Part shown: positions 59,305-60,978 of the stretch, piece after piece | Layout: every line of letters starts with the position of its first letter | Numbering within the stretch: the first letter of the stretch is position 1 | NCBI RefSeq assembly: GCF_019021925.1 | Contig: NZ_CP058990.1 | Span: 1,666,001-1,730,000, forward strand | Reading direction: 5' to 3' | Origin: Cellulophaga sp. HaHaR_3_176 | GTDB lineage: Bacteria > Bacteroidota > Bacteroidia > Flavobacteriales > Flavobacteriaceae | DNA length: 64,000 nucleotides | Notes under the pieces: model-generated | What the model saw: the letters and a program-made list of their open reading frames with translations, nothing else | Databases searched by the model: none | What the model was told of the DNA's origin: nothing | Translations under genes and position numbers: made by a program

Positions 59305-60570
59305 TTATCCTTTTATATGCAACATTTCATTCCATTGTGTTGTATATCGAGGGCTACGTTCTTCTTTTATCAGCTCCCATTCTTTAATTCGGGTGCCAAC
59401 TAATGCCGAAGACACTTTTGATTTTCCGAATTTAATATTCAAATCATCTACCACCTTTGTTAATGCACTTTTTGATGCTGTTGGAGTTTCAAATAAATTG
59501 CCCTGCACATACTCTTCAGGTATAATACCTAACAAATTTACACCTACCTTTTTATATCTATAGCCTGATTTGTATATTTGATATAATGCCTTTTTAGCTT
59601 CTTTAATTAAAACAAACGTATCGTTTGTTGGTAATGACAATTGTACGGTAATACTATTCGAGTATTGTTTATCCCGATTGCTATGGTAATTAGTCGTTAA
59701 AAAAATATTTAACGTACTGGCACAAGAACCTTGTGCACGTAACACTTCTGTCACTTCTCCTATATAATAAGAGCACGCTTCTTCTATAATATCTAAATTC
59801 TCTAATTTTTTTCCGAAAGATTTTGCTGTTCCAATCGCTTTTTTCTTTTTAGGCTCAATACAAAATTCCATGGCAGGTTCTCCATTTAACTCACGCCATA
59901 TACGCTCGCCCACTACTGTCATTTCTTTTCGCACCCATGCCAAAGGCAATTTAGTAAAATCGTAAGCTGTAGCAACACCTGTTCTCATAATTCGCTCACT
60001 ATGCTTACGCCCTATTCCCCAAACATCTTTTACCCCACACCATTTTAAAGCTTCTATCCTTTCTGACTCTGTGTTAATAATACAAACATGGTTTTTACTT
60101 TCTATTTTCTTTGACATTTTATTTGCCAATTTCGACAACACTTTTGTTTTTGCAATACCGACACCTACCGGCAAACCAGTGTACTTAAAAATAGCATCCT
60201 TTATTTGATGCCCATAATTTTCAAGTTCTTTTTCATTAATATGACCTAAATCAACAAAAGACTCATCAATACTATAAATTTCTACACTTGGCGAAAAGGT
60301 TTTTAAAATATTGATTACACGTTGCGACATTTCGCCATACAAGGTGTAATTCGAAGAAAAAAAAACTACATTATTCGCGAGTAATTGTTTTTTAATTTTA
60401 AAAACAGGCTCAAACATAGGTATGTTAGTAAGTGCTTTAGCTTCTTTATTTGCCGCAATAATACAACCATCGTTATTGCTTAGTACTACTACTGGCCTAC
60501 CTGCTAAATCTGGTCTAAAAACCAATTCACACGATGCATAAAAACTATTACAATCTACCAAAGCTATCAT
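59305..60570 (-). CDS. umuC: Y-family DNA polymerase (UmuC-like)
   Basis: 421 residues, normal length. Motif [23 protein letters not shown] with the metal Asp; [10 protein letters not shown]; and [10 protein letters not shown] with the second and third metal carboxylates. The helix-hairpin-helix part is near [19 protein letters not shown] and [16 protein letters not shown]. The C-terminal little-finger domain ends [13 protein letters not shown]. It copies past damaged bases at low fidelity. Overlaps its partner gene upstream by four bases (ATGA). Confidence 0.95.
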
Positions 60571-60935
60571 TTACATGCATGTATTACATAGGTAATTACT
60601 CCCCATAATTGAAACTCTTCTCTTTCAGCTTTTGGTGGAATTCGAATTACTTTAAACTCTCCTTCCATTACAACCATGGCTAAATTATTTTCCTTCGGAT
60701 AAAAAGAGCGATCTATAATTAAAACATCATTTTTATGTATATTAAAATCAATAAGCTCATCACTATCTATCCGAACATAAAAAGTAGCGTCGCTATTGGT
60801 AATTAATTCTTGTTCTAAACATATAGAAGGTTCTAAATAATGTGTTGCAGGACTAGGAAAACCTGTCTGCTCAGATACTTCAGGAGTGTATCTTTTTTCT
60901 ACTCTTTTTATTTTACCATGAGAAAACAATTCCAT
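60567..60935 (-). CDS. UmuD-like protein lacking the Ser/Lys protease dyad
   Basis: 122 residues, LexA/UmuD S24-type fold. [16 protein letters not shown] matches UmuD after the cleavage site, and [21 protein letters not shown] corresponds to the segment that normally reads SGDSM. By ungapped alignment and, remarkably, identical numbering with E. coli UmuD, the catalytic Ser60 is Glu60 and Lys97 is Ile97 ([11 protein letters not shown]). The cleavage pair Cys24-Gly25 is Thr24-Gly25. So self-cleavage looks impossible. It may act as a fixed partner of UmuC. It overlaps umuC by 4 bp and has two dyads and a -7 element upstream. Confidence 0.85.
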
Positions 60936-60948: not shown

Positions 60949-60978
60949 GGATATATTCCTAATTAATGGATTAAATCC
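60949..60978. promoter_or_regulatory. Two similar 11-bp dyads upstream of the UmuD-like gene
   Basis: GGATATATTCC (60949-60959) and GGATTAAATCC (60968-60978), centres 19 bp apart, both of the form GGA-N5-TCC. They sit directly upstream of the proposed -7 element, the place for a repressor. The regulator is unknown. Confidence 0.5.

Follow-up and report, generated by a model that had tools for sequence, protein, structure and literature searches.

UmuD self-cleavage is the textbook protein-level timer on mutagenesis, and in E. coli RecA is sensed at both the repressor and the UmuD step. HumD, the phage homologue of UmuD', is described as lacking the N-terminal arm. For E. coli, the available part of PMC5342242 describes the uncleaved UmuD-UmuC complex as delaying SOS mutagenesis, states that UmuD can be cleaved between subunits, and attributes low but detectable mutagenesis to UmuD 18, which is uncleaved and has a shortened arm, and greatly reduced mutagenesis to UmuD 8 S60A; as the paper contradicts itself on UV resistance between abstract and section heading, only the mutagenesis result is used here. 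Regarding repressors, the non-canonical LexA of Bacteroidetes binds GGA-N5-TCC, mainly in Flavobacteriaceae, or CTAA-N5-TTAG, and the accessible sections of PMC8565304 name as regulon members the repressor itself, SplB (COG1533), and a COG1573-COG4277 operon, with the umuDC operon among the putative members. For LexA of Balneolaeota, a consensus repeat has been published (PMC7739468, in its accessible part).

Results

A UmuD-like protein without catalytic dyad and cleavage pair

The window analyzed here, a stretch of 64,000 nucleotides from Cellulophaga sp. HaHaR_3_176, contains on its minus strand a short umuD-like gene (60567..60935) coding for 122 amino acyl residues and a umuC gene (59305..60570) coding for 421 residues with Asp6 and Asp102 kept, and the stop codon of umuD overlaps the start codon of umuC in an ATGA (60567..60570, minus strand). 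Both genes are flanked by dnaK, named by eye, and a serine dehydratase gene, identified by Pfam, with one further gene in the interval. UmuC of the window matches the IMS, IMS_C, and DUF4113 profiles and reaches 372 bits with the UmuC model, which is below the cut-off of 431, a value that was passed in none of 149 Flavobacteriaceae genomes. It also contains a QGNLF stretch, which resembles a clamp-binding motif.

A sequence-only reading of the locus had placed Glu60, Ile97, and Thr24-Gly25 at the catalytic and cleavage positions of UmuD, and the ungapped phmmer alignment to E. coli UmuD bears this out. In a search of PDB chains, the window protein and E. coli UmuD (8gmt_B, E 7e-13) match position for position from residue 23 to residue 100, with Glu60 (codon at 60756..60758, minus strand) opposite the nucleophile Ser60, and Thr24-Gly25 (60861..60866, minus strand) opposite Cys24-Gly25, at the place of the lost Cys-Gly or Ala-Gly scissile bond. 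Since 8gmt carries Ala at position 97, this position was read against UmuD' (1umu_A), where Ile97 (codon at 60645..60647, minus strand) stands opposite the general base Lys97. No other Ser or Lys of the window protein is in register with the dyad in the same alignment; its nearest Ser, residue 58, lies opposite Gly58 of UmuD, and Gly occupies this position in 74 of 103 rows of the lineage (duplicates included). An alternative alignment restoring the dyad is ruled out by the ungapped stretch from 23 to 100 and by 22 invariant columns in the lineage. Residue 104 is followed directly by the equivalent of residue 122, and the 17 residues that precede the last strand in E. coli UmuD (105-121) have no counterpart. 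The window protein thus resembles E. coli UmuD/UmuD' in the ungapped alignment, in the position of umuD before umuC, and in its best structural matches, but it differs in lacking Ser60, Lys97, Cys24, and residues 105-121 and in keeping an arm that is not removable by self-cleavage.

With profiles, the protein passes the Pfam cut-off for S24 (PF00717, 28.3 versus 23.3 bits) but fails that of the NCBIfam UmuD model (88.1 versus 110 bits). It is similar to HumD (NCBIfam NF051876) over residues 25-99 at 60.5 bits; in contrast to HumD, it stays under the family cut-off of 120 and keeps the arm. In a predicted model, confidence is good from about residue 50 onward, where five strands are formed, and poor in the first 34 residues; as pLDDT is below 50 at residues 1-27 and 31-34, no structural claim is made about the arm. 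The best matches among solved structures are UmuD' and UmuD (1ay9, 1umu, and 8gmt) and LexA domains, at a TM-score of about 0.5, a value explained by the unstructured arm.

A second, intact umuD was looked for in the same genome and not found: a search with the window protein gave a single match and no canonical UmuD, and a whole-genome search with PF00717 gave four places, i.e., a regulator with HTH and S24 domains, the S24-like end of a helicase-like frame, the window UmuD, and another HTH-S24 protein. The helicase-like frame comprises 1158 amino acyl residues, and in the S24-like domain at its C-terminal end (L002, G000:C1:1901208-1901435) Ser and Lys are present by eye. In the other HTH-S24 protein (L004, G000:C1:1846005-1846286), which as a whole protein scores 22.1 and therefore just below the Pfam cut-off of 23.3, the Ser and Lys positions look lost by eye (TVQDLFMES and ELFVRRY).

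Distribution and conservation of dyad-less UmuDs in Flavobacteriaceae

Matches to the window UmuD exist in 85 of the 149 Flavobacteriaceae genomes and fall into two score groups: 17 genomes reach 9.2e-27 or better, and all others are no better than 9.0e-19. Proteins retrieved from the better-scoring group mostly have 120-126 residues and those from the other 142-148. None of 91 unique short UmuDs possesses both Ser60 and Lys97, whereas 53 of 55 unique UmuDs of canonical length do, the two exceptions (L180 and L184) being proteins of group f18. As none of these 91 relatives keeps both residues, an erroneous sequence of a single genome does not account for the loss of the dyad. In the following, UmuDs without the dyad are called dead and those with it live. 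Three of the 17 genomes with a dead UmuD also hold a canonical match and 14 do not, 68 of the 149 have only canonical matches, and 64 have none; joint holders are fewer than expected (Fisher p 0.0096, calculated on related rows). Among 18 genomes of the genus, seven encode a short UmuD (one of them two), six a canonical one, one has a remnant, four have no match, and none has both types; RecA is present in all seven genus genomes with a dead UmuD. In five of the genus-mates, UmuD is identical to that of four Cellulophaga records, in agreement with an assignment of the genus to Cellulophaga. GTDB species genomes yielded 221 matching loci, of which the best 80 were fetched, and all genera given in their titles belong to the Flavobacteriaceae (Cellulophaga, Maribacter, Aequorivita, Dokdonia, Mesonia, Ulvibacter, Christiangramia, and others). 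The dead-UmuD lineage spans this family, and by score no member outside it was seen in overlapping samples from the order (296 genomes) and the phylum (395 genomes), part of whose matches were inspected. A mobile origin was considered and rejected, as the best identities were below 60% in phages and, among the plasmid matches listed, in plasmids, and no match occurred in viral contigs.

The sequence-only reading had proposed a survey of the family for Glu60 and Ile97 together with UmuC. Neither residue is conserved in the lineage: A, E, G, S, T, D, K, or I can stand at position 60, and I, K, M, Q, L, R, V, A, or a rarer residue at position 97, so that the dyad was lost with drift and not exchanged for a new pair. 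Ser60 alone is present in seven and Lys97 alone in eleven of the 91 unique short UmuDs. Genomes with another UmuD include three with short UmuDs that have no exact operator upstream (L048 in G150, L017 in G125, and L018 in G091), and L017 and L018 keep Ser60 without Lys97.

One might suspect that such a protein is a decaying relic of umuD, non-functional and kept only for the coupled translation of umuC. The drift at positions 60 and 97 would agree with decay, as would the genus-mate G157, where a disrupted umuDC remnant with stop codons (L047, about 1430-2010) occupies the corresponding place, flanked by the serine dehydratase gene and dnaK, and where the operon has been lost. Decay is nevertheless very improbable as a general explanation, since the median dN/dS of dead UmuDs is 0.11 over 138 close pairs, as expected for purifying selection, core and arm are both constrained (summed dN/dS of 0.19, with 0.22 for the arm and 0.17 for the rest), 22 to 23 columns are invariant in two alignments, and, the G157 remnant apart, inner stop codons are absent from the matches in the 149-genome and genus searches.

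The former cleavage region is well preserved in the lineage: Gly25, Phe26, Ser28, Ala30, His32, and Tyr33 do not vary at all and Gln23 and Thr24 hardly vary, the latter being present in 97 of the 103 rows. This pattern would fit a removal of the arm in trans, for which another S24 protease, e.g., the non-canonical LexA, or a housekeeping protease would cut at or near Thr24-Gly25, much as intersubunit cleavage is possible for E. coli UmuD. However, GFPSPA is conserved in live UmuDs as well and the invariant residues extend beyond it to His32 and Tyr33, and the stretch may therefore serve binding. Furthermore, P1 is Thr in place of a small Ala or Cys, and the arm itself is under purifying selection, so that cleavage in trans appears rather unlikely. 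Neither are the dead UmuDs arm-less in the manner of UmuD' or HumD, as the start codon is located at the same place throughout the lineage. The arm (residues 2-23) is even more uniform than its counterpart in the live UmuDs of Flavobacteriaceae (1.67 versus 2.15 bits of mean entropy), whereas the core is more variable in dead than in live UmuDs (1.21 versus 0.88 bits).

The UmuC partner and operon organization

In all 17 dead-UmuD genomes of the 149-genome sample, umuC adjoins the dead umuD directly downstream, as judged by coordinates. The ATGA overlap of umuD and umuC occurs in 87 of 91 dead operons but in only 7 of 54 others (52 live ones plus L180 and L184), and umuC precedes umuD in 30 of the 39 live Flavobacteriaceae operons (e.g., L041-L046 and L022-L028). 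In a quick tree from which five partial rows were left out, UmuCs encoded beside a short UmuD form one side of a single branch with an SH-aLRT of 100 (43 of 101 rows). Two umuC genes (L140 in G134 and L144 in G146) have no recognized umuD within about 1.5 kb.

These UmuCs have kept the residues Asp6, Tyr11, and Asp102 without exception (90 of 90 in the dead lineage). Such invariance is hard to explain if the complex never polymerizes, i.e., if the dead UmuD were a constitutive brake that is induced together with UmuC, holds it in a non-mutagenic state, and delays replication or mutagenesis. For a brake speak the retained arm with its reduced variability and, from the E. coli work cited above (PMC5342242), the greatly reduced mutagenesis of UmuD 8 S60A and the delaying effect described for the uncleaved complex. 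Yet a second UmuD match that might release UmuC is absent from 14 of the 17 dead-UmuD genomes, and we regard a brake as unlikely, although less so than cleavage in trans or decay. Of the two roles that had been offered initially for the protein, acting like UmuD' or acting as an inhibitor, the coupled and conserved operon and the kept polymerase residues favor the former.

GGA-N5-TCC operators upstream of dead umuDC operons

The dyad symmetries noticed just upstream of umuD at first inspection turned out to be two exact GGA-N5-TCC sites, one (GGATATATTCC, 60949..60959, no strand assigned) at -24 and the other (GGATTAAATCC, 60968..60978, no strand assigned) at -43 from the umuD start. With respect to these two operators and to the presence of the regulator in the same genome, the locus resembles the regulon of the non-canonical LexA in PMC8565304, the examined parts of which contain no mention of a dyad-less UmuD in such operons. 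At least one GGA-N5-TCC site precedes 85 of the 91 dead umuDC operons and at least two precede 62, whereas none of 39 live operons of the family has any; shuffled sequences lead one to expect about 3 of 91 and 0.2 of 39, respectively. The count of 85 was obtained with four start codons moved to the conserved Met of the lineage (81 of 91 before), and the 39 live operons are those of 42 unique family rows that have at least 100 bases upstream. The Fisher p for the contrast is 3.5e-27, which overstates the case because the rows are related and, leaving aside the f62 locus mentioned below, no more than one to three losses are required by the tree. The exact site is absent from six dead operons (L013, L017, L018, L048, L064, and L066), three of which belong to genomes with a second UmuD. 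The alternative motif CTAA-N5-TTAG occurs before none of the 91 dead and none of the 39 live Flavobacteriaceae operons, and no common palindrome stood out in the live operons, where the top dyads were found in 3 of 39.

A single site means little, as GGAWWWWWTCC occurs 38 times in the HaHaR_3_176 genome and its reversed control 86 times. More than one such site is found at only three promoters, i.e., that of the regulator and its divergent gene, that of a PA0069-family radical-SAM gene, and that of umuDC. The first 60 residues of the product of the divergent gene match the UDG-linked radical-SAM model. Both radical-SAM families, UDG-linked and PA0069, presumably fall within the COGs listed in PMC8565304. 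The regulator itself (L001/L289, G000:C1:1317500-1318255) consists of HTH and S24 domains with Ala-Gly, Ser, and Lys in place, and it was found in all 18 genus genomes, each time with AAAGYP, GDSM, and VLVKK; its matches in G152, G153, and G162 contain one TAA at their extreme end, downstream of residues matching the tail of the regulator. At least two GGA-N5-TCC sites precede the regulator in 17 of the 18 genomes, the exception being G155, where the start is uncertain. As these 17 include all six genomes with a live UmuD, live operons are without the operator despite the presence of the regulator and its motif. Judged by its promoter sites, umuDC of the window is a candidate member of the non-canonical LexA (GGA-N5-TCC) regulon.

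Dead UmuDs in other groups of Bacteroidota

Forty further UmuD loci of the phylum were picked by hand and are not a random sample, groups f18 and f38 having been chosen on purpose after L180 and L184 looked dead. The dyad is missing in 22 of these 40 (7 of f18, 14 of f38, and 1 of f62), and in 21 of them the residue at position 24 is Thr instead of Ala or Cys. CTAA-N5-TTAG is located at -30 to -36 before all nine dead f18 umuD genes (including L180 and L184), with umuC recognized beside eight. In f38, the nine loci with umuC within 600 bases and one more carry a direct repeat upstream that matches the Balneolaeota LexA consensus (PMC7739468, accessible part) at 14-18 of 20 positions; this LexA system has another repressor and another motif than the non-canonical LexA regulon. 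No shuffle out of 100 reached the score in six of the ten loci, and the other four (14-15 of 20) are within background; beside umuC, five of the nine repeats are above all shuffles and four are no better than background. Since chance alone gives 14-15 in further live or f18 rows, these four f38 loci prove nothing on their own. From this motif and not from any name, f38 would be a Balneolaeota family. Thus, two other groups of dead UmuDs appear to carry other published SOS operators, f18 clearly and f38 partly, as far as motif matches tell. The dead UmuD of f62 (L283) is without a recognized operator. Neither palindrome occurs at any of the 18 phylum loci that keep the dyad; one live UmuD locus (L281) has a Balneolaeota-like repeat of 16 of 20 on the minus strand, a score reached by 1 of 100 shuffles. 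Four f38 loci (L256, L262, L263, and L267) encode dead UmuD-like proteins (KETGFPSPARDH or RETGFPSPAQDH) with neither umuC in the fetched stretch nor a LexA-like site, and a role independent of UmuC is possible for them.

In the quick tree, UmuCs from the short, f18, and f38 groups each form one clade, and AU tests do not reject a single dead clade, neither for the short and f18 groups (p 0.65) nor with f38 included (p 0.55).

Discussion

The sequence-only reading had also proposed that a UmuD of this kind cannot be switched on by cleavage and that control may be only transcriptional, and this is strongly supported in silico, the dyad being kept in 0 of 91 relatives and operators preceding 85 of 91 dead but 0 of 39 live operons. 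At the level of sequence, the combination of dyad loss, constraint, a UmuC clade of its own, and SOS-type operators is established. What it probably reflects is a move of damage sensing from UmuD self-cleavage to the repressor, with the uncleaved UmuD serving as a UmuD'-like subunit of Pol V. Before damage, judging from the published work on the regulator, the non-canonical LexA would bind both GGA-N5-TCC sites and block umuDC. Upon damage, RecA filaments would make this LexA cleave itself and, with the repressor gone, UmuD and UmuC would be made together. The uncleaved dead UmuD might then bind UmuC and, like UmuD' of E. coli, directly support translesion synthesis, a step that is less firmly based than the preceding ones; if it does, there would be no second, delayed switch at the protein level, and the N-terminal arm, disposable in E. 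coli, would be a permanent part of the subunit.

Non-cleavable UmuDs have a precedent in UmuD 18 and UmuD 8 S60A of E. coli (available part of PMC5342242), although these are engineered and truncated in the arm, whereas the lineage described here is natural and has a full-length arm. Given the greatly reduced mutagenesis of UmuD 8 S60A and the full-length arm here, UmuD'-like activity is not a given. Also, because umuDC of E. coli is both controlled by LexA and activated by cleavage, one control does not in principle exclude the other. Among the open-licence PMC papers listed in literature searches, no title or opening abstract reports dyad-less UmuDs, which is not proof of absence. More tentatively, and with somewhat less than even confidence, we suggest that Pol V of Bacteroidota might exist in two mutually exclusive modes, one employing a RecA-sensing UmuD without operator and the other an SOS repressor together with a dead UmuD, that there were one or a few switches between these modes, involving at most three types of operator, and that the uncut arm in the dead mode is a permanent, selected part of an always-active subunit.

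A natural and widespread lineage without self-cleavage makes it testable whether Pol V needs cleavage at all or whether its coupling to damage has two interchangeable routes. Structural studies might benefit from pairs of dead UmuD and UmuC, which might be obtained as active Pol V with the arm left on. As regards annotation, the name of the nearest NCBIfam model, 'autoproteolytic subunit', is wrong for dead UmuDs if the dyad is required. In Cellulophaga sp. HaHaR_3_176 and its relatives, the safety switch on mutagenesis seems to have been shifted from the protein to the gene.
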